Source of the DNA: an uncultured Marinicella sp.
Lineage (GTDB): Bacteria; Pseudomonadota; Gammaproteobacteria; Xanthomonadales; Marinicellaceae
DNA: 34,187 nucleotides
NCBI GenBank assembly: GCA_937942365.1
Contig: CALDFB010000155.1
Location: 1 to 34,187, forward strand
Direction: 5' to 3'
In this document: piece by piece, positions 5,999 through 26,320 of the stretch
Layout: each line of letters starts with the position of its first letter
Position numbering within the stretch: position 1 is the first letter of the stretch
Made by a program: the position numbers and the translations under genes
The notes under the pieces: generated by a model
Seen by the model: the letters and a program-made list of their open reading frames with translations, nothing else
Told to the model about the DNA's origin: nothing
Databases searched by the model: none

Positions 5999-6234
5999 AT
6001 ACTTCTCCTTAGTAAATTAATAAATAAGCTTGAAGATGAATAAGCTCCATAGCTATCCACTTCAGGTCTGTATTTTGCATGAGGCTAGAAATCTAAAAAA
6101 TAGAAAAATTCTGAAAACTGGGTAAGGTTTTTGAATATATATTAGAGTATTCTTATTATATCTGTAGGAATTAATCTAATTATTCTCTATAATATTTACA
6201 AGAAATTAATAAGTGTACTTTGACCATAATATCC

Positions 6235-8106
6235 ATGAATAATCTTGTTTTGCAGTTATCTCTGTTTTCTTTTCTTTGGGCAGGCTCAGTTTTGGCTGGT
6301 GGAACCATTGATTTCACTCCACATGGCACACAACCAGGATTGAATTTTAATTTAGACTCACCAACAGACTGTCGCAGTTGTCATAATGGTGGTAATGTAA
6401 ATGATGACGAAATTAATATGCCTTATGCTACGTGGATAGGTTCCATGAAAGCCAATGCTACACGAGATCCTCTATTTTGGGCTGCATTAGATGTGGCCAA
6501 TAATGACATTCCGGGGGTAGGAGACTTTTGTTTAAAGTGCCACACGCCTCAAGGTTGGTTCAATGGCAATGTAGTCAAGCCAACAATTGATGGAGAGCCA
6601 TTGGTTGATGGGGCCAACGGTTGTGAGTTGAATGGTGACCATGTCAGTCAAGAAAGTAAATTAAGTGATTATGGTGGCGTAAATTGTCACTTTTGTCATC
6701 GCATTGATGAAACAGGCCCGAATGGAGAACAGCTTGCTGTAGAAAATGGTGATGTTTGGGTTGATGATGAAAGCTGTGATAATGGAGGTTTCGGCCCATG
6801 TCGTAAAGGTCCTTATAAATATGAAGATTTAAACACCCCGCCTCATGCTTGGAAATTTTCAAGTTTCTTGGGGTCTTCAAAATTTTGCGGTAGTTGTCAT
6901 GACATTTCTTCACCAACCATTGAACAAAATGGTGTGTTGACTGTAGCCAGAAAGTTCTGGAATGATGGTGTTGAGACAGACATTGCTATGCCCATTGAAA
7001 GAACTTATTCAGAATGGAAAGATTCATACTTTGCTGATTTGATATTCCGTGATCCATTCAACGACTTGACCACAACTGACGCTCCAGTAATAGCTAAAGG
7101 TGAAAACTGTCAAACCTGTCATATGCCCCAGTCAGAAAGTGATGAGGCCAGAGCATGTGTATTTGACTCATTGGATGGTGATGGTAATGGCCGCAGAAAA
7201 GGGGATTTGGCTACACATCAGTTTGCAGGTGGAAATACATGGATGCCACAAGTTATCAAAGCCGTTTACGGTGATGCATTAGAGGCCAATGATCCGGGTC
7301 CTGGTCGAAAAGCAGCTTTGGATTTAACTACTTCATATGCGATGGATATGCTACAAAACAAAAGTGCCTTGATTGAAGCCAGCGTAACCAATCAATCCAA
7401 CGATCAACTTGATTTGGATGTTAAAGTGACCAATTTAAGTGCCCACAAATTACCCACCAGTTATGCTGAAGGAAGGCGAATGTGGTTACATGTTCAGGTA
7501 CAAAACTCTGTTGGAGAAGTTTTTTGGGAAAGTGGTGCATACGATGTCAACACAGCTGTTCTTACCGAAGATTCACAAGTAAAAATATATGAAGCATTAC
7601 AAGGTATTTGGAATGCTGATCCAGATGGTGACGTAAATACCAATGATGGTACATGTGAGGTAAACGATGACAATGGTAATAAAATGTTCCATTTTGTGCT
7701 GAACAATTGTATCGCCAAAGACAATCGCATTCCTCCACTTGGTTTCAGAGGTGCAGGTAATATAGAGATGCAACCAGTTGGCATCACTTATCCACCTCAT
7801 CCTACCAATCCAGATCAAGTGGTTAACTTTGATGTGACACAATACCAAATTCCAATAACAGGTCAAACAGGCCCGTTTGATGTGACTGCGACCTTAAAAT
7901 ATCAAGTTGCCAGTAAAGCTTATATTGAATTTTTAGATCGAGAAGCGAAGGTCAATAATTTTGAAACAGAAAATGAAATGTGTGATCGGACTTGGACCGT
8001 AGGCCCTGCGGATCAAACCAGAGGCGCATTCATGAAAAGCTTGTGGGAAACTTACAACCGATCTGCGCCCGTTGATATGGTCATGGATTTTGTGGAAGTG
8101 AACTGA
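6235..8106 (+). CDS. Secreted multiheme c-type cytochrome (five CxxCH)
   Basis: ATG at 6235 (track start TTG 6220), signal peptide NLVLQLSLFSFLWAGSVLA. Heme motifs CRSCH, CLKCH, CHFCH, CGSCH, CQTCH. Confidence 0.85.
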   Translation: MNNLVLQLSLFSFLWAGSVLAGGTIDFTPHGTQPGLNFNLDSPTDCRSCHNGGNVNDDEINMPYATWIGSMKANATRDPLFWAALDVANNDIPGVGDFCLKCHTPQGWFNGNVVKPTIDGEPLVDGANGCELNGDHVSQESKLSDYGGVNCHFCHRIDETGPNGEQLAVENGDVWVDDESCDNGGFGPCRKGPYKYEDLNTPPHAWKFSSFLGSSKFCGSCHDISSPTIEQNGVLTVARKFWNDGVETDIAMPIERTYSEWKDSYFADLIFRDPFNDLTTTDAPVIAKGENCQTCHMPQSESDEARACVFDSLDGDGNGRRKGDLATHQFAGGNTWMPQVIKAVYGDALEANDPGPGRKAALDLTTSYAMDMLQNKSALIEASVTNQSNDQLDLDVKVTNLSAHKLPTSYAEGRRMWLHVQVQNSVGEVFWESGAYDVNTAVLTEDSQVKIYEALQGIWNADPDGDVNTNDGTCEVNDDNGNKMFHFVLNNCIAKDNRIPPLGFRGAGNIEMQPVGITYPPHPTNPDQVVNFDVTQYQIPITGQTGPFDVTATLKYQVASKAYIEFLDREAKVNNFETENEMCDRTWTVGPADQTRGAFMKSLWETYNRSAPVDMVMDFVEVN

Positions 8107-8109
8107 ATA

Positions 8110-8688
8110 ATGAAACAATTTTATATAATACTTTTTTGGGTTAATAGTGGATTTGCAGTTGAGTTTTTACCTCACAGTCAAGCAGACTTACCTGCGCCAG
8201 CTTTACAAATTTCTTATGCTGGTAGCGAGTTTGAAGAAGTTCTGGTGAACGAATGGAAAGATGTTGTCATGATTGATGGAATAAAAAGACAATTTTTATA
8301 TCAACAAGGCTATAACTATAAGAAAAAAGAAGGATTCAGTAGAACGGTCAATTCAGATGGTTCTGTATATCACCAGAAATATTCCGTAGATCATAGCACC
8401 ATGGTTTCTCAAGAAGAAATGATGGTGGCGTTTGAGGTTTTTAAAAATAACCCTGAAGTGAAAAATATTTTGTCAAAAGAAACCCTGCCTATCAGTCTGT
8501 ATGGAGGTTTCTCTTTCAATGATAAAAAAAAGGACGAGCCATGTTACAAGGGGAATCGTTGTGTTCATATCATGGCATCTAGTGAGAGCAATTCATTGAT
8601 TGTTAACTCAATTGTTAAGTTAAATGATAAGACAGTTCCGTATCCTGTGTTTGATATGAAAGAATTAAAAAAAAGAGATGAAAAATGA
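8110..8688 (+). CDS. Secreted protein with resemblance to the copper amine oxidase N3 domain
   Basis: Signal-like N-terminus. MVSQEEMMVAFEVFKNNPEVKNIL resembles the CuAO N3 pattern (TPEEF..aEa..kadPeVqaaL...), with a C-terminal IVKLNDKTVPYPVFD strand region. Overlaps the next ORF by ATGA. Confidence 0.5.
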   Translation: MKQFYIILFWVNSGFAVEFLPHSQADLPAPALQISYAGSEFEEVLVNEWKDVVMIDGIKRQFLYQQGYNYKKKEGFSRTVNSDGSVYHQKYSVDHSTMVSQEEMMVAFEVFKNNPEVKNILSKETLPISLYGGFSFNDKKKDEPCYKGNRCVHIMASSESNSLIVNSIVKLNDKTVPYPVFDMKELKKRDEK

Positions 8689-9884
8689 AAAGATTGTTGA
8701 TGTTGATGTTGATTTTATTAGTTAAGTTTGAGTATTCAGAAGCCATGAGTAATGTGACTTGTGTAGGAGATGAAACATATGTTGCCTGGCCTGATTCAAC
8801 TAACCCTGTATGGGAAATGTGTTATCTATCCCCTAATAACAGTTCTTATGCTGAAGGTTCGGGTTTAGAAATTAGGTATGTACACTTCAACGGTTACTTG
8901 GCTATTGAAAGATCACACACTCCTTTGGTTTTTGCAAATTACACCAATGGTACATGTTACAGGGACTGGAAAGATGAAAATTCAAGTTTTATCGCTGCCA
9001 GTGGGGTGGATAACCCCACTCAGTCAGCAATAACAACTTGTGATGCATCAACAGACCCAAGCACCCCCGTTTTTAATTGCCCTTTTGGATTGATGGGCGA
9101 TTGTGTCACAGGCGTTCAGGTTGAAAAGTATGATGATCGTTTGGTCTTAACGACGAATTTTTCTGCCGCTTGGTATAAATACACGGGTCGCTATATTTTT
9201 CATGCAGATGGTAGAATCCAACCAAGATTTGGGTATGCAAACAATAATGGTACGCTACAAAATGTTGAGCATTGGCATCACAGTTATTGGCGCATTAATT
9301 TCGATATTGATGGCATGTTAAATGATAAAGTGTATGTAACTGATCAAGCAGGTGAAATTGAGCAAACCACTGAGTTTTCAGACTTTAGAGAATTGTTTAA
9401 TGCCACCAATGATACCAGCACTTATGCAGATGAGGTGACTTGGTTGATTAAAGACTCAATTACCGATCGTGGTTATAGAGTAGTTGCGGGACAAGGCGGT
9501 GTATCTGCAAATGGTGGTATTGATGATTATGATGTTATAGCTGACGAGAGTGGGGCTGGTTTTCATGAAATAGATGTTATGGCATCTAGATATAAGTTAT
9601 TTTCTAATGGAATGCCTGAATATGGTGATGTCAGTACATCTAGTTTAAGTGATTGTCGAATGCGTCATGAAAACATAATTGGTATTCCAGGTAGTGGCAG
9701 TAATGAACCAGAAAGTTTAGTAGGAGAAGATGTGGTTTTTTGGTATCGTGGAGCAGTTAATGATGTACCAGTCAGCCAAGGTGGCGCCGCATTGCTATGC
9801 AAAACTTCTGGGCCAACCTTTTACCCTGTTGGAGATTGGGGACTTGTCGATTCAGATTTGATATTTGAAAGTGGCTTTGAATAA
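8685..9884 (+). CDS. Secreted copper amine oxidase catalytic-domain-like protein with C-terminal IFESGFE
   Basis: RLVLTTNFSAAWYKYTGRYIFHADGRI aligns by eye with CuAO RLVvsf.atvgNYeYgfyWyFYQDGtI. HWHHSYWRINFDIDG resembles the HxH copper-ligand region. EDVVFWYRGAVNDVP resembles EDLVLWvt.G.hHIP. Confidence 0.55.
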   Translation: MKRLLMLMLILLVKFEYSEAMSNVTCVGDETYVAWPDSTNPVWEMCYLSPNNSSYAEGSGLEIRYVHFNGYLAIERSHTPLVFANYTNGTCYRDWKDENSSFIAASGVDNPTQSAITTCDASTDPSTPVFNCPFGLMGDCVTGVQVEKYDDRLVLTTNFSAAWYKYTGRYIFHADGRIQPRFGYANNNGTLQNVEHWHHSYWRINFDIDGMLNDKVYVTDQAGEIEQTTEFSDFRELFNATNDTSTYADEVTWLIKDSITDRGYRVVAGQGGVSANGGIDDYDVIADESGAGFHEIDVMASRYKLFSNGMPEYGDVSTSSLSDCRMRHENIIGIPGSGSNEPESLVGEDVVFWYRGAVNDVPVSQGGAALLCKTSGPTFYPVGDWGLVDSDLIFESGFE

Positions 9885-9905: not shown

Positions 9906-9936
9906 AAAAGCCCTTATATCAGAGGGCTTTTTTTTT
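9906..9936 (+). terminator. Rho-independent terminator
   Basis: AAAGCCCT-tatatcag-AGGGCTTT followed by Ts, right after the 8685-9884 CDS. Confidence 0.9.
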
Positions 9937-12077: not shown

Positions 12078-13361
12078 TTAAGATTCTAAATAAATGGTTT
12101 CTTTTTCACGGATGATTTCTATTTCAAATGACTCATCAAATTTGAAACCAGACATTATTTTCACCACATCTTTGGGTGAGTTGACATCCTCGCCATTGAT
12201 GGCTTGAATCACGTCACCGTCTTTTAAACCCAGTTTGTTATTTTGATCAACCTCTAAAACCAGGACTCCTTCAGTGGTTCCAAAGTATTTGCCTAATGAT
12301 TCAGTTACTGTAGAAAAGTGGTGGTTTTTTCCTAGCCATTGATTCATTTTGCTGCCAGAAAAAAAGTAGGCATCTGCATCACCAGTGGTCACAACTCTGA
12401 TATCTTGTTCACCAAAGCCATCAATCATTTTTCCGAGGTGTTCAACGTCTACGTGAAGACCTTCAAACATTTCATTCATGCCATTGGAGTTGAAAGTGAA
12501 TTGATCTCCTGATTTTGAAAACCAATTATTGTCGGTGTTCATGTGCATGATAACGTCAGGACTGTTGACCATTCTGGCCTCAACCCCTAGCACCAGTTCA
12601 TTGTCACCGCGCTTGATTGCTATATCGCTGATGTCACCCACTTCCTTATCAAAGCCAATGAATTCTGTTAAACCAAGACCTCCTTTGGCGGTACTTTGTC
12701 CATCTATTGATACGATCAAATCACCTTTGGTTAAACCTGCATCGGCAGCGCCACTGTCAGGCACCACAGAGACTATTTTCCAGCCATCATCTTCTACGGA
12801 TGCCATGAATCCTAAGCGAGGCTTGTCTTCGTGGATACGAGAGAATTGACTGTCCAGTTTGATGACTTTTCTGTGCATGTCAGCATCCACATCAATGCCA
12901 TGCTTTTCCATGATGTCGTCTATCAGTGAATTGATGTCGGTATTTGCCTCAACATCAAACATTTCTTCTATGGTTTCAGTTTCACCGTTTTCAGATTTGA
13001 TCAGTGTAACGGTCGCTTTACCGTTGTTCACGTTAAGGTTTACATTGTTGTTCTTTTGTAACCAAATCTTGTCTTTGCCATAATGATCAATATTGATATG
13101 ATCTGTATCTTCGTCGATCCCGTGTTTGTCTAGAATATCTTGGACAATAGCATCGATATCACCTTCATCTGTGACAGTAAACGTTTCTTTAAAGGTTTTG
13201 ACGTTGCCATCGGCTAACTTGACTATAGTAACTTTACCTTCATTGTCTTCAACATTGACCTTGATTTTTGTTGCTGATTTTTCAGCCAAGCCATTGGCGC
13301 TAAAGGCCATGAGGCTGGTTAACATCAAAGTTGATATTGTGTTTTTAAAATTGAATTTCAT
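12078..13361 (-). CDS. Secreted protein with a duplicated N-terminal domain and two PDZ domains
   Basis: MKFNFKNTISTLMLTSLMAFSANGLA signal peptide (start 13361 preferred over 13490). PDZ-like LGFMASVEDDGWKIVSVVPDSGAADAGLTKGDLIVSIDGQ and VLVLEVDQNNKLGLKDGDVIQAINGEDV. Confidence 0.83.
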   Translation of the reverse strand: MKFNFKNTISTLMLTSLMAFSANGLAEKSATKIKVNVEDNEGKVTIVKLADGNVKTFKETFTVTDEGDIDAIVQDILDKHGIDEDTDHINIDHYGKDKIWLQKNNNVNLNVNNGKATVTLIKSENGETETIEEMFDVEANTDINSLIDDIMEKHGIDVDADMHRKVIKLDSQFSRIHEDKPRLGFMASVEDDGWKIVSVVPDSGAADAGLTKGDLIVSIDGQSTAKGGLGLTEFIGFDKEVGDISDIAIKRGDNELVLGVEARMVNSPDVIMHMNTDNNWFSKSGDQFTFNSNGMNEMFEGLHVDVEHLGKMIDGFGEQDIRVVTTGDADAYFFSGSKMNQWLGKNHHFSTVTESLGKYFGTTEGVLVLEVDQNNKLGLKDGDVIQAINGEDVNSPKDVVKIMSGFKFDESFEIEIIREKETIYLES

Positions 13362-13380
13362 GTATTCACCTGTATTAAAT

Positions 13381-13866
13381 TTAAATAACTTGTTTTGGGG
13401 CTTGTGGTTTATATTTTTTATGTAATGCCACAAGGTCGTCGAGAATTTCGAGCTTGGCATGCAGCAACTCGAGTTTTTGGTCGGTTTCATCGGTTTGCGC
13501 GATATTTAGATCCAATTGGTCCAACCAGTTTTCCATAGAAATCATTTTTTCCAAGATGGGTGAGCCCGGTTCTGAGTGGTTAATCACTTCGTTACGGACT
13601 ACATACTCAATCATGGCAATCTTTTCAGTCAATAATTCTAATTGTGCTGATTGATTGATATTTGAATGGTTGTTGTTGAAATGAGGTGATTGCCACAACA
13701 TGATGGCAGCCAGAATGGTTGCAGCGATTGCAGGAATTCGAAAACTTTGTTTTCTTCTGTGCTGATGGACTTGATCCATGATGGCATCAAAACCGTCATT
13801 TTTCGGTTCTACTTGCGGTTGCTGATTCAAGTATTCATGCACAGATTGGTCACAGGCTTTTTTCAT
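13381..13866 (-). CDS. Single-TM putative anti-sigma factor
   Basis: Central TM (IPAIAATILAAIMLW), overlaps the ECF sigma gene, C-terminal coiled coil. Confidence 0.6.
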   Translation of the reverse strand: MKKACDQSVHEYLNQQPQVEPKNDGFDAIMDQVHQHRRKQSFRIPAIAATILAAIMLWQSPHFNNNHSNINQSAQLELLTEKIAMIEYVVRNEVINHSEPGSPILEKMISMENWLDQLDLNIAQTDETDQKLELLHAKLEILDDLVALHKKYKPQAPKQVI

Positions 13867-14401
13867 GATGTACCTCTTGATTTTGGAGCCACTTGGATAA
13901 CAGTTGCTTACTTCTGGCTAGTTGTGATTTAGAAAAACTGGCAGACATTTTATAGAGGTCCGCAATCTCAACATGGGTCATTCCTTCGACTTCATAAAGC
14001 CATAACACTGAACGTGATAGTGGTGGTAATTTGGCCAACATTAAATTCAAATCGTGCTGATAATCATATTCAATTTTTTGTTTATGATCTGTTTGCTCTT
14101 GGGATTCGATGGTTAATTGTTGGTGATTTTTTTTGATTTGATCCAGGCATTGGTTCACAACAATCCTTCGCAACCAAAACCCAAAAGCTGATTTGCCAGA
14201 CCATTGGGTGATTTTCTGAAATGCTATGATGAAACTATTTTGCATCACATCTTGCGCATCATCTATATTTTGTAACATGCGAAATGCTAAATTATATACA
14301 GGTGTTGAAAAGGTGTCATAAACATGACGACAAGCTTGTTGTTGACCCCTTAAGACCTGTTTTTTTGTGATGTCAGTAATGTTTTGATTAAAGTAGCTCA
14401 A
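13850..14401 (-). CDS. ECF-type RNA polymerase sigma-70 factor
   Basis: Region 2 (VYNLAFRMLQNIDDAQDVMQNSFIIAFQKI) and region 4 (LPPLSRSVLWLYEVEGMTHVEIADLYKMSASFSKSQLARSKQLL). Confidence 0.92.
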   Translation of the reverse strand: MSYFNQNITDITKKQVLRGQQQACRHVYDTFSTPVYNLAFRMLQNIDDAQDVMQNSFIIAFQKITQWSGKSAFGFWLRRIVVNQCLDQIKKNHQQLTIESQEQTDHKQKIEYDYQHDLNLMLAKLPPLSRSVLWLYEVEGMTHVEIADLYKMSASFSKSQLARSKQLLSKWLQNQEVHHEKSL

Positions 14402-17855: not shown

Positions 17856-19594
17856 ATAACTTTTTAAAATTAAATATATGTATGTTAATGGTGTTAAGTT
17901 TGCTGGCTTGTGAAAGTCAACAAGAGAGTGATCAATCGCCGGTCACAAAGCAAACAGTTGAAAGTGATGTGGCTAAGCAGCCATCTGTTAAGCCAAGTCA
18001 AGATGAAATGTATTATCAAAAAGACCCTTTGCGAGAACCCATTAAAAAAAATCATGAACACTTACTCAATAAATACGCTACATTTAGATTGACCAGTGAT
18101 TTATCACATTTAACAGAAAATCAAAGAAAGATGTTAGGAATTCTGGTTGACGCAGCTGAGATTATGGATGAGTTGTTTTGGTTGCAAAGTTACGGTCCTA
18201 AGAAGCCTTTTTTGGATGGAATAAAGAACCAAAGGTTGCGTAAGTTTGCCGACATCAACTATGGCCCTTGGGATCGTTTAGATGGTGATAAGCCATTTCT
18301 AGAAGGCTATGAATCTAAGTTTTTAGGTGCTAACTTCTATCCCAAGGACTTAGATAAAGCTGATTTTGAGGCTAAGGCCAGTGCGGGAATGAAAGATTTA
18401 TATACTCAGGTTTTTCGTGATAAGCAGGGTGGGCTTTCTTATGCGCCATTTCATCATCTTTACGAGCGACAATTAAAGCAGGCTTCTGCTTTATTGAATC
18501 AAGCTGCAGCGTTGGCAGAAGATGCTGGGTTTGAAAAATATTTAAAATTACGTGCACAAGCATTGTTAAATGATGAGTTCAAGGCGTCTGACTTGGCTTG
18601 GATGGATATGAAGAACAATCAAATTGAATTGGTGATTGGACCAATTGAAACTTATGAAGATCAATTGTTTGGTTATAAAGCAGCTTATGAAGCTTACGTT
18701 TTGATTAAAGATTTAGCCTGGAGTGAGAAATTGGCTAAATTCGCCGCTTTTTTACCGCAATTACAAAAAGAGTTACCTGTTGCAGATGCATTTAAAACCG
18801 AAACCCCTGGAACTGATTCAGACCTGAATGCTTATGATGCGATTTATTATGCAGGTCACTCCAATGCAGGAAGTAAAACCATTGCCATTAATTTGCCCAA
18901 TGACGAAAGTGTGCAATTGGAAAAGGGTACACGTCGCCTACAACTTAAAAATGTTATGCAGGCTAAATTTGAAAAAATCTTACTGCCTATTGCCAATGAA
19001 CTGGTTACACCGAATCAGCGTAAACATGTCACATTCAATGCTTTTTTTGCCAATACCATGTTTCATGAGGTGGCACATGGTTTAGGTGTTAAAAACACCA
19101 TTAACGACAAAGGTACAGTGAGAACAGCATTGAAAGAACTGGCCTCACCAATTGAAGAAGGTAAAGCCGATATCTTAGGTTTGTACATGGTTGAGAAATT
19201 GCATCACATGGGAGAGTTAGAAGAGGGTGAAATGATGGATTATTACACCACCTTTATGGCAGGTATTTTCCGTTCGGTTAGATTTGGTTCAAGTTCTGCT
19301 CATGGGGTAGCTAATCTGCTTAGGTTCAATTATTTTTCAGAAGCTGGTGCATTCAGTTACGATGAAAAGACCGGGCAATATACGGTTGATGCACAAAAAA
19401 TGTCAACGGCTGTGGCTTCATTGTCGCAAAAAATCTTAACCTATCAGGCCACAGGTGATTACAACGGGGTTAAAGAATGGTTCAACGATAAGGGACAAAT
19501 CAATGAACAACTGGCGCACTCTTTGAAACGTGTCAATGAAACAGTTATACCTGTTGATGTAGTTTTTGAACAGGGTATGAAATATTTAAATTAG
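17852..19594 (+). CDS. Lipoprotein, dipeptidyl-peptidase III-like (M49-type) zinc hydrolase
   Basis: Lipobox LSLLAC. Zinc motifs FHEVAHGLG and EEGKADILGLY in the order expected for M49-like peptidases. Confidence 0.75.
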   Translation: MNNFLKLNICMLMVLSLLACESQQESDQSPVTKQTVESDVAKQPSVKPSQDEMYYQKDPLREPIKKNHEHLLNKYATFRLTSDLSHLTENQRKMLGILVDAAEIMDELFWLQSYGPKKPFLDGIKNQRLRKFADINYGPWDRLDGDKPFLEGYESKFLGANFYPKDLDKADFEAKASAGMKDLYTQVFRDKQGGLSYAPFHHLYERQLKQASALLNQAAALAEDAGFEKYLKLRAQALLNDEFKASDLAWMDMKNNQIELVIGPIETYEDQLFGYKAAYEAYVLIKDLAWSEKLAKFAAFLPQLQKELPVADAFKTETPGTDSDLNAYDAIYYAGHSNAGSKTIAINLPNDESVQLEKGTRRLQLKNVMQAKFEKILLPIANELVTPNQRKHVTFNAFFANTMFHEVAHGLGVKNTINDKGTVRTALKELASPIEEGKADILGLYMVEKLHHMGELEEGEMMDYYTTFMAGIFRSVRFGSSSAHGVANLLRFNYFSEAGAFSYDEKTGQYTVDAQKMSTAVASLSQKILTYQATGDYNGVKEWFNDKGQINEQLAHSLKRVNETVIPVDVVFEQGMKYLN

Positions 19595-19607
19595 ATCAAA
19601 CCATTTA

Positions 19608-19652
19608 ATAAAACCAGAAGGCCTGAGGTTATTTATGATTTTAAGGCCCTTT
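19608..19652. terminator. Possible bidirectional terminator between convergent genes
   Basis: AAGGCCT...AGGCC(C)TTTTT imperfect inverted repeat between CDS ends 19594(+) and 19641(-). Confidence 0.4.
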
Positions 19653-21050
19653 TTGTTCAGGGTGAAAGTGCTCTACTTTTATTAACATGTTAAACAGAAG
19701 AAATAGGTAACAAGGTGTTAATTGTAAAATCAGTCGATTGATGGCGGTTAAATCTAAGGCCCATTTGCTGGCCTCGGTAAAATAAAACAAAAACAAAAAA
19801 CACAACAAAGCAGAGATGAAAAATGTTTGAGCGACTTTATAGGCTTGGTCATGACGCTGGGTCAAAAATGTCACCATCAAAAATGGCAAGCCCAGCCAAA
19901 TGATCGACCAGTTGTTTTGCCATAAAAAACTGGTCAGCAGTTGATCTGTGATGTTTTGAAACTGAATGGGTGTATCTATTAGATTGAAAATAACAATCCT
20001 TTGTTGATTGATCACCAGGTCGCCAAATGGAAAATGAAAGTTGATGACATTTGAAGCAAACAGGAAAGCGAAAATTAGCGTAAAAGCAGTAATCCAATAT
20101 TTTTTTTTGTGTTGCCATAAATTGACCAAAACGTAGGCTACTGCAAATAACAGTAACCATATCCAGCCCTCTAGTTTAAGCATAGGTAAAATAAATAAAT
20201 AGCAAATCAGTGCAATACCTGTGTCAATTCGTTTTGATTCTTTACAGTCTACCAATGTGAGTAAAAGCAACATGATGTACATGGCCATCCAAATGTCTGC
20301 ATACCCCTGAATCATCAAATGGTTGTTGATCATTGGCGTTGTAAATAAAGCGATCATAGCAAAGGCTTGTAAGTATGTTGTGCCATTGTTCTTCGCAAGC
20401 CTTTGTACCATTAACATTGAAATTAGGGTAAAAGCAAATAAATTAACCACATAAGTAATGGCAAAGCCGTCGTTGCTTAGCAACATGGGTAAATAGTAAA
20501 TCAGAGATAGGCCATCAGGGTAGTTGGCAGCATGGTTATAAATGGATTGATGGTTTAATAACCACTCATCCCAATCATGAATGTCGGTATTCAAACCATG
20601 TAGTACCCATTGCTGGGCTCGCCCTTCCCAGACTGCCCAAGAATCCCAAGCTATATTAGGTAGCATGTGACCATTCCAATAAATTAATAATGCACAAGCA
20701 CAAGCCAGACTGAATAGCGCAGTTGGTGGGCTGAGCCATTTGAAAGATAGTTGTGAACTGATCGAGCTAGCATGCCAAGCGATTAATAAAATGGCTGCAA
20801 CTAGAATCAAAATAATGATAATCAATATCGTTATAACTGACCAGTTAAATAACTGTAAGGTATTGAACAAAAGAACATGGAAAAATACCCCCTGAAAAAA
20901 TGCATGGCTTACAAATTCTGTTTTAGTCTCAAGGATCCATTTGTTTTTGATCAGGAGGTTAACAGTTTGCCTAAAACCAGCTCCCAGAACCAAAAAATAA
21001 ATAATGTAAGCCAATCCAAGTAATACAATCATTTTTTTCTCAATAAACAA
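19641..21050 (-). CDS. Polytopic membrane protein (GT-C-like glycosyltransferase candidate)
   Basis: Roughly a dozen hydrophobic segments, with luminal-loop-type sequence WDSWAVWEGRAQQWVLHG. Sits in the glycosyltransferase neighbourhood. Confidence 0.6.
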   Translation of the reverse strand: MFIEKKMIVLLGLAYIIYFLVLGAGFRQTVNLLIKNKWILETKTEFVSHAFFQGVFFHVLLFNTLQLFNWSVITILIIIILILVAAILLIAWHASSISSQLSFKWLSPPTALFSLACACALLIYWNGHMLPNIAWDSWAVWEGRAQQWVLHGLNTDIHDWDEWLLNHQSIYNHAANYPDGLSLIYYLPMLLSNDGFAITYVVNLFAFTLISMLMVQRLAKNNGTTYLQAFAMIALFTTPMINNHLMIQGYADIWMAMYIMLLLLTLVDCKESKRIDTGIALICYLFILPMLKLEGWIWLLLFAVAYVLVNLWQHKKKYWITAFTLIFAFLFASNVINFHFPFGDLVINQQRIVIFNLIDTPIQFQNITDQLLTSFLWQNNWSIIWLGLPFLMVTFLTQRHDQAYKVAQTFFISALLCFLFLFYFTEASKWALDLTAINRLILQLTPCYLFLLFNMLIKVEHFHPEQKGP

Positions 21051-22189
21051 AAGTCTTCATCAACGTGTAAAACCTCAACTGAATTATCGAGCCAATCGAA
21101 TCTTGCCGGGTAATTACAGTACCTGACTTGTTGTTTCACAGCAATAAAGATAAATTCTTTATCACGAGAGCTGTTTAACGGGTTTTCTTTGTCAAAATGT
21201 ATGGCTAAATTAAAGTGTCTTAAGTGGTGTTTAAGTCTGAGTTTGAAAAAGCTGTTGCTACCCACCAATACGTAACGAGAAATGGTGGGAAATTGTTTTG
21301 AAAGTTGATTGAGCTGAGCTGTGATAAGGTCAGCCAACCTCAGACTGTCTTGATCTACAGCATTGATGAGCTTTTGTTCATTTGAAAAAGCGTGTTTGAT
21401 TTGGTCATGCTGTTTCAAGCGAGACGATACGAAGAAAAAACTGCTGAACATCCATGCCATGAAAAATGTCAGCAGTAAATGTTTGCCATCAATTTTAAAA
21501 AGCAAAAACATCAAAGTTGATATGATGACCCAACTGCCTAGCCTGTAAATCAAGCTTTTTAAGTGTAAGTTGCTGCTGTTGGTATAGCCATTGATGGCAC
21601 TCAGCTTTAAAGGAGTGAAGTGATTCCAATGACTGAGGTTGGTTGCCATTTGGCTTTGATTTTCAAGTCGACCAAGGTGAATTGATTTGAATGAAATCTG
21701 ATCTTGAAAACTATGATTGATTCCTAACTCTGGTAAGGAGTTAATCATCAAATGAAGGTCTTCAATTTCATCTACGTTTTTAGTTTGAAAGTCAATTGGG
21801 TTGATTGAATGGGTGTTTTGGTTAAGTGTTCGTTGATAAACATGGTCTTTGACACGCCAGTTTAATGTGATTTGAATGTTTTGTTTGTAGATGTAATCGG
21901 TAATGATTAAGGCATCAAAATGAGTCAGGTCGTGAGGTAATTTTTCAGTGTTGATGTTTAATCGTAGCTGGCCTGGAACAGCGGCATGATAGTGGTTATC
22001 GCTGTAAAAAAAGAATTTAGGTTCAACCTTTAAGTAGGGGATCAAAGGCAGTGAGTTATTTGATTTGTCATAACTGTTAGTCCCGGAGTAAACTAAACAG
22101 ATCGCAAGAGCAAGCATTGATAACAGCCAGTAAATTGTTGACTTTCTGTCCAAAATTGTAACTATTCCTCTAAATAAGTTGTCAGGCAC
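21029..22189 (-). CDS. Membrane protein of unknown function
   Basis: TM near the N-terminus and in the middle. Overlaps the downstream membrane ORF by 22 bp. Confidence 0.6.
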   Translation of the reverse strand: MPDNLFRGIVTILDRKSTIYWLLSMLALAICLVYSGTNSYDKSNNSLPLIPYLKVEPKFFFYSDNHYHAAVPGQLRLNINTEKLPHDLTHFDALIITDYIYKQNIQITLNWRVKDHVYQRTLNQNTHSINPIDFQTKNVDEIEDLHLMINSLPELGINHSFQDQISFKSIHLGRLENQSQMATNLSHWNHFTPLKLSAINGYTNSSNLHLKSLIYRLGSWVIISTLMFLLFKIDGKHLLLTFFMAWMFSSFFFVSSRLKQHDQIKHAFSNEQKLINAVDQDSLRLADLITAQLNQLSKQFPTISRYVLVGSNSFFKLRLKHHLRHFNLAIHFDKENPLNSSRDKEFIFIAVKQQVRYCNYPARFDWLDNSVEVLHVDEDFCLLRKK

Positions 22190-22367
22190 ATTATAAATAA
22201 ATTTTATAATAGATAGTTTTTTTTAGCACTCGTTTTTGATTGGGTGTTTTGATAAGTTATTTAGATGGCTGTCCTAAATAGTGACTTACCTCAATATTTT
22301 ATTAATTAGCATTGATATTGTGCTGATAATAAAGCTACAATCTTTTCGTGTATTCTAATTTATTTAC

Positions 22368-23138
22368 ATGTATTTAGTCATAGAAAACAATAAAAAATCA
22401 TTTTCTTTCCCTGCCAATGGTACTTTGGTAGTGGGCAACGATGCTGATTGTGATGTACAAATTAATCATCCTAAAATTTGGGGGCGACACTTCGTTATCA
22501 CACAAAACAGCTACGGTTGTGTGTTGAGGGTGTTTCAAGACTCTGTTTTGGTTAATGGTCAAGCCATAACAGAAAAATGTATATTGGATACTGGCGATGT
22601 CTTACAAGTGGGTGAGCTTTCATTCAGATTGCTAGATGACAGCTACATTCCCAAAGATTCTTATCTGAATTACACCAATGTAAAGATTAAGAGTAACCCA
22701 AACGTTTCTTCCGTTTATGGTATCAGAAGTTTCTCAGCAGAAAATATGGGTGAATTTGTTATTGATGATTTTCATCATCCTGATGGATGGCATGTTTTTC
22801 GTAAAGAAAATGAATTACATTTTATTGACAGCAAGCACACCACTTTTCTTAATGGTTTGCAGATAGCCCAAGCAAATCTGAGTAATGGTGATGTGATATC
22901 GAGTGAAAAATACAAGTATAAAGTTGAATTACCAGGTACTTCTGGTTTTTCTAAATTTAGCCCATCCCATCCAAGAAATGTTCTACTCAGTGAGTCAATG
23001 GATAGCGGTAATACTCAGGCAGACGAGAGAAGTGGTGAGTTAGGTGCTGGTTTTTTTAAGAATAACCTATGGTGGTTAACCTTGCTGGTGGGTTTGAGTG
23101 TGCTAACACTTCTGATATTGAATAATCCCAGCACATGA
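22368..23138 (+). CDS. Tandem FHA-domain protein with C-terminal TM
   Basis: GTLVVGNDADCDVQINHPKIWGRHFVITQN...VLVNGQAITEKCILDTGDVLQVGELSFRLL, then FVIDDFHHPDGWHVFRKENELHFIDSKHTTFLNGLQIAQANLSNGDVI. TM LWWLTLLVGLSVLTLLIL. Confidence 0.82.
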   Translation: MYLVIENNKKSFSFPANGTLVVGNDADCDVQINHPKIWGRHFVITQNSYGCVLRVFQDSVLVNGQAITEKCILDTGDVLQVGELSFRLLDDSYIPKDSYLNYTNVKIKSNPNVSSVYGIRSFSAENMGEFVIDDFHHPDGWHVFRKENELHFIDSKHTTFLNGLQIAQANLSNGDVISSEKYKYKVELPGTSGFSKFSPSHPRNVLLSESMDSGNTQADERSGELGAGFFKNNLWWLTLLVGLSVLTLLILNNPST

Positions 23139-23190
23139 GGTCTGTTTCTGCACGGCCACTAAATTGCTTTCAATTCTCTTGAGAATTAGG

Positions 23191-23219
23191 TTGACCAATT
23201 AAATTAATTTAAGTAAAAT
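23191..23219 (+). promoter_or_regulatory. Putative sigma70 promoter for rplU-rpmA-(obgE)
   Basis: TTGACC (23191-23196), 17-nt spacer, TAAAAT (23214-23219), about 40 nt before rplU ATG 23259. Confidence 0.65.
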
Positions 23220-23258
23220 CCCCGCTCTTTTTAAGAACAACCGAATTGGAGCAGTTTC

Positions 23259-23567
23259 ATGCACGCAGTTGTAGCTACAGGTGGCAAACAATACAGAATC
23301 AAAGAAGGCGATGTCATTAAAGTTGAATCGTTGAAAGTTGAAGCTGGTGATAAAATTAAATTAGATCAAGTTTTGATGGTTTCTGATGGAGAAAATATCG
23401 AAATAGGAAAACCTTTGTTAGATGGGAAGACTGTTTCAGCAGAAGTTTTATCCAATGGTCGCCACAAAAAAGTAAGAATCATAAAATTCAAAAGACGTAA
23501 GCACCACATGAAGCAAATGGGTCATCGTCAGAATTTTACTGAATTGAAAATCACTAAAATAGGATAA
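23259..23567 (+). CDS. rplU: 50S ribosomal protein L21
   Basis: [25 protein letters not shown]...[28 protein letters not shown]. Confidence 0.98.
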
Positions 23568-23581
23568 AGAGGTAAAACGTC

Positions 23582-23842
23582 ATGGCTCATAAGAAAGCAG
23601 CAGGTAGTACTAATAATGGTCGCGATTCAAATCCTAATTACCTAGGTGTAAAAATGTATGGTGGTCAATCAGCCATTGCTGGAAATATTTTAGTTCGTCA
23701 AAGAGGAACTAAAGTACACGCAGGTGAAAATGTAGGTATGGGTAAAGACCATACTTTATTTGCATTAAAAGACGGTGTAGTTAAATTCGTTAAGAAAGGG
23801 AAAAAATACCGTCAGTACGTTACCATAGAAACACAAAGTTAA
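23582..23842 (+). CDS. rpmA: 50S ribosomal protein L27
   Basis: [62 protein letters not shown]. Confidence 0.98.
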
Positions 23843-23879
23843 ATAACAGTAAAACAGTTTTTAACAAAATTGATTAATC

Positions 23880-23907
23880 AAAGCTCACTTTTAAGTGGGC
23901 TTTTTTT
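23880..23907 (+). terminator. Terminator/attenuator after rpmA
   Basis: AAGCTCACTT-tt-AAGTGGGCTT hairpin (one G-U pair) plus a T run. Confidence 0.75.
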
Positions 23908-23930
23908 ATAGACAAGATTATAGTTAGCCC

Positions 23931-24959
23931 ATGAAATTTGTAGATGAAGTAAAGATAACAGTTAAAGCGGGTAATGGTGGCAGTGGTTCTGCCAGTTTCA
24001 GACGCGAAAAATTCGTAGCTTATGGAGGTCCTGATGGCGGTGATGGAGGGCATGGTGGATCAGTTATCTTGCAAGGTGACCAAGGTTTGAATACTTTGGT
24101 AGATTTCAGGCATAAAAAACGTTTTGATGCGCCCAATGGCCAGTCAGGAAAAGGTCGACAAATGTATGGCAAGGGTGGTGATGACTTTATCATTAAAGTA
24201 CCCACAGGTACTGAAGTATACGATTTGGAAACAGATCAAAAATTAGGTGATATAACAGCCCATAAACAACAGTTGGTGATAGCTAAAGGCGGTAAAGGTG
24301 GGTTGGGAAATATGCACTTTAAGAGTTCAGTTAATCGCGCCCCGAAACAATTCACTTCAGGAGAACAAGGTCAGCTTCGTGAAATTAAACTTGAGTTGAA
24401 AGTTTTGGCGGATGTGGGCTTGTTAGGTTTTCCTAATGCCGGGAAATCAACTTTTGTCAATGCGGTATCTAAAGCCAGACCCAAAATTGCCGACTATCCA
24501 TTCACTACTTTGTATCCAGCTTTGGGTGTTGTACCGATTGATGCAGATACCAGCTTCGTCGTTGCAGACATACCGGGTATCATTGAAGGTGCGGCAGAAG
24601 GTGCTGGTTTGGGGATTCAATTTTTAAAGCATTTACAAAGAACGGGTTTGTTGTTGCATATGATTGAGTTACCAGCCTACGAAGGGGCTTCAGACCCGGT
24701 TACTCAATTTGAGCAATTATCAGAAGAATTGGTGAAATTTTCTGAGCAATTAGAAGAGAAACAGCGCTGGTTAGTATTCACAAAGGCTGATGTGACCACA
24801 GAAACTGAAGCGAAAGAATGGGCAGCCGGTTATGCCAAATCAATCGATTGGCAAGGCAAGTACTATTTAATTTCATCAATCACAAAATTTGGTCTGAATG
24901 AATTATTGAAAGACATTGCAAGTTACTTGTTTGCCGAGGAAGATGAGTGGCTCAAGTAA
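23931..24959 (+). CDS. obgE: Obg-family GTPase
   Basis: Glycine-rich Obg fold plus G motifs GFPNAGKSTFVNAV, DIPGIIEGAAEGAGLGIQFLKHLQRT, FTKADV. Confidence 0.97.
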   Translation: MKFVDEVKITVKAGNGGSGSASFRREKFVAYGGPDGGDGGHGGSVILQGDQGLNTLVDFRHKKRFDAPNGQSGKGRQMYGKGGDDFIIKVPTGTEVYDLETDQKLGDITAHKQQLVIAKGGKGGLGNMHFKSSVNRAPKQFTSGEQGQLREIKLELKVLADVGLLGFPNAGKSTFVNAVSKARPKIADYPFTTLYPALGVVPIDADTSFVVADIPGIIEGAAEGAGLGIQFLKHLQRTGLLLHMIELPAYEGASDPVTQFEQLSEELVKFSEQLEEKQRWLVFTKADVTTETEAKEWAAGYAKSIDWQGKYYLISSITKFGLNELLKDIASYLFAEEDEWLK

Positions 24960-25869
24960 TCGAGTTTTTAAATTGCTCAGCTTCAGCAATCAACCATTGC
25001 CTGATCATTTGTAGCTTTTGATCGTCTTGAGTATCTTCGGGGTAAACCAGATAGTAGGACATTTGGCCTTTGATTTTTATGTCAAAAGGGGCGGTCAAAA
25101 GACCACGATTGATGTCATCTTGAACCAGGGGAGTTCTGCCTAACGCAAACCCTTGGTGGTTTTCTACCGCCTCTAACATCGTAACCATATGACTGAAACG
25201 TGTTCCTCTCAAGTCCGGTTTAGTTTGAACTCCTGCTGCTGCAAACCAATCATGCCAACCTTCTGAATTAAAGTCTTCATGACATAAATTGGCACGTAAT
25301 AACCGTTCAGGAGTTAATTTACCTTCGTATGATTCATATAACTGTTTGGAACAAATAGGAAAAACTTCTTCCTCTAAAAATAATTCACATTTGAGTCCAG
25401 GGTAACTGGGGTTCGCAGTATATCGTATAGCAACATCACAATCATCTTTCTTAAAATCAGTTAACCACTCAAATGCAGATATTCTGACATCAAGATTTTT
25501 GTTTTGCTGTTGAAAACGCCAAATTCTTTTAGATAACCACTTGGTAGCAAAAGAAGGCAATAAAGATATATTCAAGGTTCCTGTGGTATCACGGCTTTTT
25601 AATTGTCTGGTCGCTTTTTCGATGCCTTCCAAGGCACTTCTGATAGAAACCAAATACAAGCGGCCTTCAAATGTCAGTTTCAGTGATCTGTTGAAGCGTT
25701 CAAATAATTGCACACCGGTAAATTCTTCTAAATTCTTAATTTGGTGACTGATGGCAGCTTGTGTAACATGCAGTTCTTTAGCGGCCAAAGTAAAACTCAA
25801 TAATCGAGCAGATGCTTCAAAAGCCTTGATAGATCTAAGTGGCGGTATATTTTTGTACTTTTTTGACAT
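24952..25869 (-). CDS. LysR-family regulator, GcvA-like
   Basis: PPLRSIKAFEASARLLSFTLAAKELHVTQAAISHQIKNLEEFTGVQLFERFNRSLKLT. Overlaps obgE tail-to-tail by 8 bp. Confidence 0.93.
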   Translation of the reverse strand: MSKKYKNIPPLRSIKAFEASARLLSFTLAAKELHVTQAAISHQIKNLEEFTGVQLFERFNRSLKLTFEGRLYLVSIRSALEGIEKATRQLKSRDTTGTLNISLLPSFATKWLSKRIWRFQQQNKNLDVRISAFEWLTDFKKDDCDVAIRYTANPSYPGLKCELFLEEEVFPICSKQLYESYEGKLTPERLLRANLCHEDFNSEGWHDWFAAAGVQTKPDLRGTRFSHMVTMLEAVENHQGFALGRTPLVQDDINRGLLTAPFDIKIKGQMSYYLVYPEDTQDDQKLQMIRQWLIAEAEQFKNSIT

Positions 25870-26117
25870 TAATTATATGTGAATATATTTCACATTAGTA
25901 TAATTTAGCCGATACATTAAAACAATTAGCTTGATATGGAGGCTTTATTCAGTAAAATTGCGCGCATTGAATGGGTAGTGTCACTGTTGGTACTTTATTA
26001 AGCATTAATGATAATAATTTGAACTTTATGTTTGAATTAGCATCAAAGCATATATAAACATGATACTTGCTTAATTCCTTCACGTTTCATTCATCTTTGT
26101 TCAGTAAGATGGGATTT

Positions 26118-26260
26118 AACAATTTTCATTGTTCATTTGAAATCGCAAGATTTCATGTGTGTTTCAGACTCAGGTTTGGGACATGCGAAAACAGCTGAGG
26201 TTTTCCTCCCTCTTCCTCAGCGTTATACTTCAGGCGTCATACATTTGACGCCTTTTTTTT
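26118..26260 (+). ncRNA. Candidate structured small RNA (5' end undetermined)
   Basis: Four hairpins: AACAAT-TTTC-ATTGTT (26118-26133), GAAATC-GCAA-GATTTC (26139-26154), GCTGAGG-(14 nt)-CCTCAGC (26194-26221), AGGCGTCA-TACATT-TGACGCCT (26232-26253) followed by Ts. No + strand ORF upstream ends here. Confidence 0.55.
26232..26260 (+). terminator. Rho-independent terminator with no upstream CDS on its strand
   Basis: AGGCGTCA-TACATT-TGACGCCT followed by a T tract. Confidence 0.88.
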
Positions 26261-26320
26261 GCTTGATTCCAAGATTGTTATTCTACATAATAAGTTGATT
26301 CTGATTATGGTAGGTGTATT

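Follow-up and report, generated by a model that had tools for sequence, protein, structure and literature searches.

A Split Copper Amine Oxidase-Like Gene Pair behind a Pentaheme Cytochrome c Gene in Marinicella and Other Lysobacterales

In a stretch of 34,187 nucleotides from an uncultured Marinicella sp. (the window), we found a module of three neighboring genes coding for a secreted pentaheme c-type cytochrome, a small exported protein resembling the D2 and D3 domains of copper amine oxidases (CuAOs), and an exported protein resembling the CuAO catalytic domain (D4). Classical CuAOs are single-chain enzymes with three histidine ligands, which use copper and oxygen to form their quinone by themselves. 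We estimate a probability of about one half that the module is an exported, CuAO-derived dehydrogenase which passes electrons to the cytochrome.

Organization of the Locus

All three genes are encoded on the forward strand. The cytochrome gene (6220–8106, with a probable ATG start at 6235) contains five CxxCH heme motifs (CRSCH, CLKCH, CHFCH, CGSCH, and CQTCH) and ends 3 bases upstream of the gene for the small protein (8110–8688; 192 amino acids). The latter shares a 4-base ATGA overlap (8685–8688) with the catalytic-type gene (8685–9884; 399 amino acids), and both products begin with a hydrophobic, signal-like N-terminus. A previous sequence-only reading of this DNA had described the two overlapping ORFs, their signal-like N-termini, and several motifs in each; all were found exactly as described, the motifs in the same order. 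That reading mentioned neither the five-heme gene upstream, nor the loss of the third copper histidine, nor the FESGFE tail at the C-terminus.

Downstream of the catalytic-type gene lies a stem resembling an intrinsic terminator, followed by a T run (9906–9931, forward strand), which we presume to mark the operon end. The stem lends weak support to such an end, with two terminator-like sites observed in the region and 2.9 expected by chance. Given the 3-base gap, the ATGA overlap, and this stem, the three genes look like one transcription unit. Farther along, on the reverse strand, ORFs annotated by eye as a sigma-factor-like protein, a small putative membrane regulator, and a two-PDZ-like exported protein stand in a row (12078–14401) which is kept across Marinicella.

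The Small Protein Resembles D2 and D3 of CuAOs

The smaller ORF had been read as an N3-like half of a CuAO, and both its predicted structure and profile–profile comparison with controls point to CuAO D2/D3. The AlphaFold2 (AF2) model of the protein has a pLDDT of 92. When this model was compared with the PDB using Foldseek, the first eight matches were all Arthrobacter CuAO structures with a probability of 1.00 (TM 0.53–0.56 over about 156 of 192 residues, E-value 1e-3 to 7e-3), and the probability dropped to 0.12 at the ninth. Using hhalign against D2/D3 of six classical CuAOs, the small family scored 43.2 in one direction and 47.0 in the other; none of 60 column shuffles scored above 21.6, and the reversed profile gave 11.5. 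The score against the D2/D3 genes of related split operons was 58.8 (shuffles ≤19.4).

In the hhalign register, the second half of the small protein falls on D3 and the preceding strands fall on the second half of D2, whose helix is absent. The D3-like part (residues about 97–179; 8398–8646, forward strand) was delimited by alignment to D3 of E. coli AmO and comprises helices and strands in the AF2 secondary structure. On this basis, the small protein models as the C-terminal part (sheet) of D2 together with D3. An assignment as mainly N2-like was ruled out, as hhalign places the helical half on D3.

The relation to CuAOs is visible by fold and profile–profile comparison only. None of 26 small-family members matched the Pfam families of CuAO D2/D3 (PF02727/PF02728), a search of the PDB with the small-family profile found no CuAO, and PDB sequence searches with either the small or the catalytic-type protein gave nothing useful. 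In Rhodanobacteraceae-type relatives, the small protein starts with a lipobox-like LxxC, resembling a lipoprotein signal.

The Catalytic-Type Protein Resembles D4 of CuAOs

The larger ORF, previously read as catalytic-domain-like, is matched by the Pfam family PF01179 (Cu_amine_oxid) with an E-value of 6e-4 and 19.3 bits, which is below the gathering score of 27 bits; the same family matches 19 of 29 family members, with a best E-value of 6e-7. Three places of E. coli AmO line up with the family profile, namely the TPQ strand, the HxH motif, and the strand of the third ligand; the overall E-value is only 0.35. The AF2 model is of moderate quality (pLDDT 80) and superposes loosely on CuAO structures (rmsd about 9 Å). 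Nevertheless, the top 50 Foldseek matches of this model were all CuAOs (best E-value 4e-13), so that CuAO structures ranked first for each half.

The gap between the catalytic-type protein and classical CuAOs is closed by two distant relatives. One is a fused single-chain protein of 555 amino acids (L112; 986–2653, reverse strand, genome G371), whose profile alignment with the catalytic-type family has an E-value of 1e-34. The other is a stand-alone catalytic protein of another family (L113), which aligns at 4e-14; this three-histidine split relative is itself matched by PF01179 at 2e-44. The catalytic-type protein models as the CuAO catalytic domain D4, which has the super-beta-sandwich fold. 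As for the minimal two-gene CuAO-like architecture that had been proposed, both halves are CuAO-like, but the arrangement needs amending in that the D2 helix is lost and the small protein corresponds to D3 plus the D2 sheet.

The catalytic-type protein ends with FESGFE-stop (9864–9884, forward strand). The pattern FxxGFE-stop is recurrent in the genome (47 places in G000, compared with one for a backwards-pattern control) and also ends most catalytic-type relatives and other secreted proteins (L182 and L184). It resembles a C-terminal tag for sorting or anchoring that is specific to the lineage. On contig C123 of G000, four FxxGFE-tailed ORF ends are spaced by about 2.8 kb (17863–26275), which suggests a tandem array of similar secreted proteins. 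In a group of relatives (L032–L038), one or two Big_9/cadherin-like domains, in a region which holds repeated VTQPxNGxV motifs, are inserted between the catalytic domain and the GFE tail.

Active-Site Residues

Active-site positions were assigned with E. coli AmO as the reference within the alignment, and the numbering lands exactly on known residues; the roles given for these positions are those of the CuAO family. Five residues are invariant in all 52 sequences: Tyr86 (8940–8942; equivalent to Tyr369, which hydrogen-bonds TPQ), Asp94 (8964–8966; equivalent to the catalytic base Asp383), Tyr164 (aligned to the TPQ precursor Tyr466), and His196 and His198 (His196-Trp-His198, 9270–9278; equivalent to the copper ligands His524 and His526). 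The third copper ligand, His689, is replaced by Asp360 (9762–9764) in each of the 51 sequences covering the site, and one further row has a gap. The residue before the tyrosine, Asn465 in E. coli AmO, is Trp163 in 52 of 52 sequences (Trp163-Tyr164, 9171–9176), and the consensus Asp/Glu after the tyrosine is replaced by Lys, Met, Gln, Leu, or Phe. Two additional histidines, His78 and His294, are invariant in the module family and are not conserved in classical enzymes.

The roles of active-site residues in CuAOs have in part been described, together with the TPQ consensus Asn-Tyr-Asp/Glu (PMC3382800). A change of the Asn to Ala in HPAO-1 left only 5–10% of TPQ (PMC3382800). Considering this precedent and the altered Asn position, ordinary TPQ biogenesis may fail in the module protein.

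The pattern of invariant residues argues against decay, which is disfavored because true pseudo-paralogues of a related operon lose the tyrosine and HxH. The protein has the D4 fold, the TPQ-precursor tyrosine, the catalytic-base aspartate, and the TPQ hydrogen-bonding tyrosine of CuAOs; it has two of the three histidine ligands and lacks the TPQ consensus, a single polypeptide, and a PF01179 match at the gathering score. The earlier CuAO identification is thus borne out for the fold, but to label the protein a copper amine oxidase would be an overstatement, since all members have Asp for the third histidine and depart from the TPQ consensus. The module is best filed as a CuAO homologue which, by definition, is no copper amine oxidase, yet judging from its residues it looks like a working redox enzyme.

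Distribution, Gene Order, and Selection

Among 200 relatives searched, the catalytic-type protein was matched in 32 genomes, including two with only a fragment or a distant classical-type match. Hosts named in a scan of the collection are Marinicella, Dokdonella, Tahibacter, Pseudofulvimonas, and other Lysobacterales. After de-duplication of the loci from Marinicella and Lysobacterales, the small gene was found directly upstream of the catalytic-type gene in 52 of 54 cases, by which a frameshift or an assembly error as the cause of the split is ruled out; the search for split and fused homologs also yielded one fused relative, L112. In a phylogenetic tree, all module sequences form one group with L112 as its neighbor (support 100/100). 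Sequence identity within the module family goes down to about 40%.

The order cytochrome–small–catalytic is kept in 43 of 47 de-duplicated loci. Two of the four exceptions (L076 and L094) are truncated contigs; in L058, the sole cytochrome is a divergent one at the opposite side, and in L061, the small gene is missing and little is left of the catalytic gene. Tandem small–catalytic pairs are present in six loci. Comparison of neighborhoods across families revealed no neighbor outside the module that is common to all of them, and no relatives were found in viral contigs. The dN/dS ratios against the nearest relative are 0.04 for the cytochrome, 0.08 for the small gene, and 0.09 for the catalytic gene; both the small and the catalytic genes are under purifying selection.

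Full-text literature searches (subscription papers and preprints being outside their scope) turned up no account of CuAOs that are split, that are accompanied by a multiheme cytochrome or by MauG, or that are pseudoenzymes. The claim that the architecture is undescribed agrees with these searches, although the split itself is not unique, as another gammaproteobacterial family has it as well.

The Pentaheme Cytochrome

Of 29 genomes in which the catalytic gene is substantial, 28 gave a strong cytochrome match, compared with 47 of 200 relatives overall (hypergeometric P about 1e-20, with kinship ignored), and the small–catalytic pair almost never occurs without the cytochrome. Many Marinicella and relatives (L170–L180) have the cytochrome but neither gene of the pair; in several Marinicella genomes this pair-less cytochrome sits at the syntenic place between the same neighbors. 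Since it often occurs without the pair, the cytochrome has another job.

The CCP_MauG profile gave 21.1 bits on the cytochrome, under the cut-off of 25.6, and there are five CxxCH motifs rather than two hemes; by profile and heme number, it does not appear to be a MauG or di-heme cytochrome c peroxidase. None of the Pfam matches of the three genes belonged to the subunit families of MADH or QHNDH. Distant five-heme cytochromes of the same family (L192, L195, L201, and L202) adjoin large ORFs of about 750–770 amino acids, which are possibly an alternative partner.

Possible Function of the Module

As the pair almost always lies behind the five-heme cytochrome gene, its electrons probably go to the hemes and not simply to oxygen. 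We propose that the small D2/D3-like and the D4-like proteins assemble after export into a CuAO-like unit. Its buried site would contain Tyr86, Asp94 as the base, Tyr164 as the precursor of the cofactor, and His196 and His198 for metal binding, the third histidine being replaced by Asp360. Either by itself or jointly with the adjacent invariant Trp163, Tyr164 might be converted to an oxidized tyrosine-type cofactor at this 2-His/1-Asp metal site. The enzyme could then oxidize a small substrate, most simply an amine. It would be a dehydrogenase in that its electrons would pass to the product of the pentaheme gene immediately before the pair, and not to O2 alone. Counted against the dehydrogenase reading are the lost third histidine, the changed Asn-Tyr-Asp/Glu consensus, the pair-less cytochromes, and the loose superposition of a moderate model. 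More tentatively, the module may represent a new class of two-subunit dehydrogenases with a quinone or radical cofactor, built on the fold of CuAOs. In this reading, the metal site would be His/His/Asp, Trp and Tyr would form the environment of the cofactor, and a partner multiheme cytochrome, not copper and O2 alone, would mature or re-oxidize the enzyme.

The invariant change of His to Asp, together with the invariant His78 and His294, suggests a changed metal site, and the protein might instead be a non-quinone metalloenzyme or a metal-binding protein, in which the CuAO fold holds iron or copper at a 2-His/1-carboxylate site, the tyrosine acts unmodified or as a radical or ligand, and the cytochrome gives or takes electrons. 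We regard this as rather unlikely, considering that the catalytic-base Asp and both active-site tyrosines, which are known for TPQ chemistry, are invariant too. If the protein were an ordinary amine oxidase apart from its split, with the metal bound by two His and one Asp, autocatalytic TPQ, and reduction of O2 to H2O2, the cytochrome would be a mere co-transcribed neighbor or peroxide handler. The invariance of the catalytic base, the TPQ tyrosine, the hydrogen-bonding tyrosine, and two copper histidines would fit such an enzyme, as would the three histidines kept by a sister split family, but we give it a still smaller chance because no member has retained the third copper ligand or the TPQ consensus, the pair is very closely associated with the cytochrome, and a heme gene is also found beside the parallel split clusters. 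Least probable is a pseudoenzyme scaffold, a dead CuAO fold to which the cytochrome would bind in the envelope or outside the cell: a parallel split operon does contain a clear pseudo-catalytic paralogue (Tyr to Arg, HxH lost) and, in some relatives, Big_9/cadherin-like domains precede the C-terminal tail, but, unlike in true pseudo-paralogues, five active-site residues are the same in 100% of the module family, whose sequences range down to about 40% identity.

A conserved split family with a changed ligand, a changed pre-tyrosine residue, and a cytochrome would be a test of the need for copper and oxygen in quinone biogenesis. As a CuAO-derived dehydrogenase, the module would also show a route from an oxidase fold to a respiratory dehydrogenase. 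The related split operons, in which the copper sites are intact and a MauG-like gene is found, form a natural comparison series.

Comparison with Known and Related Systems

The module and classical CuAOs (E. coli TynA/AmO and Arthrobacter AGAO) share the folds of both halves, the domain order, the TPQ-precursor tyrosine, and the equivalents of Tyr369, Asp383, His524, and His526. The module differs in having two genes instead of one, in the loss of the D2 helix and of a stretch between the TPQ strand and HxH, in the changes of His689 to Asp and Asn465 to Trp, and in its pentaheme cytochrome neighbor.

The fused protein L112 is the closest sequence outside the module family and has the same Trp-Tyr-x-Tyr motif and HHHH. 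Unlike the module, it is one chain, keeps the third copper histidine, and has no cytochrome on its 8 kb read. Profile comparison gave no match between its N-terminal part and the small protein, so L112 alone is no proof that the small protein is a detached N-terminus.

Parallel split operons are present in the gammaproteobacterial families f85 and f156, with genes for a D2/D3 protein (220–240 amino acids), a pseudo-catalytic protein, and a catalytic protein. The catalytic gene has Ala-Tyr-Asn/Tyr/Ala, HxH, and the third copper histidine, whereas the pseudo-catalytic gene shows Tyr to Arg and a lost HxH in the f85 copies. A search of the relatives of the first f85 genome detected such catalytic genes in 27 f85 genomes. 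Split operons were located at L113 (6363–12324), L135, L136, L141, and L114, with several copies per f85 genome. These clusters resemble the module in having a separate D2/D3 gene upstream of the catalytic gene(s) and, in the f85 clusters sampled, a c-type heme gene. They differ in their three copper histidines, Ala-Tyr-Asn/Tyr motif, tandem pseudo-catalytic gene, and full D2; the f85 examples inspected have a MauG/CCP-type di-heme gene close by, where the module has the pentaheme cytochrome. The parallel split indicates that detachment of D2/D3 is a recurrent or old state, and the heme genes in both split branches make a c-type heme protein a common companion of the two.

In the flavin amine oxidase family, dehydrogenases that use a cytochrome are predicted by a cytochrome c gene next to that of the enzyme (PMC12224317), and an adjacent exported cytochrome c gene, one mark of the cytochrome-coupled dehydrogenase class, is present in the module. 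Within this flavin family, NicA2/Pnao with CycN combine an exported enzyme of an "oxidase" family with an adjacent cytochrome c gene, although their fold and cofactor are unrelated, their cytochrome is of another kind, and the likeness is one of analogy only. Functionally, the flavin amine oxidases with their cytochrome c gene are the closest precedent for the electron path proposed here.
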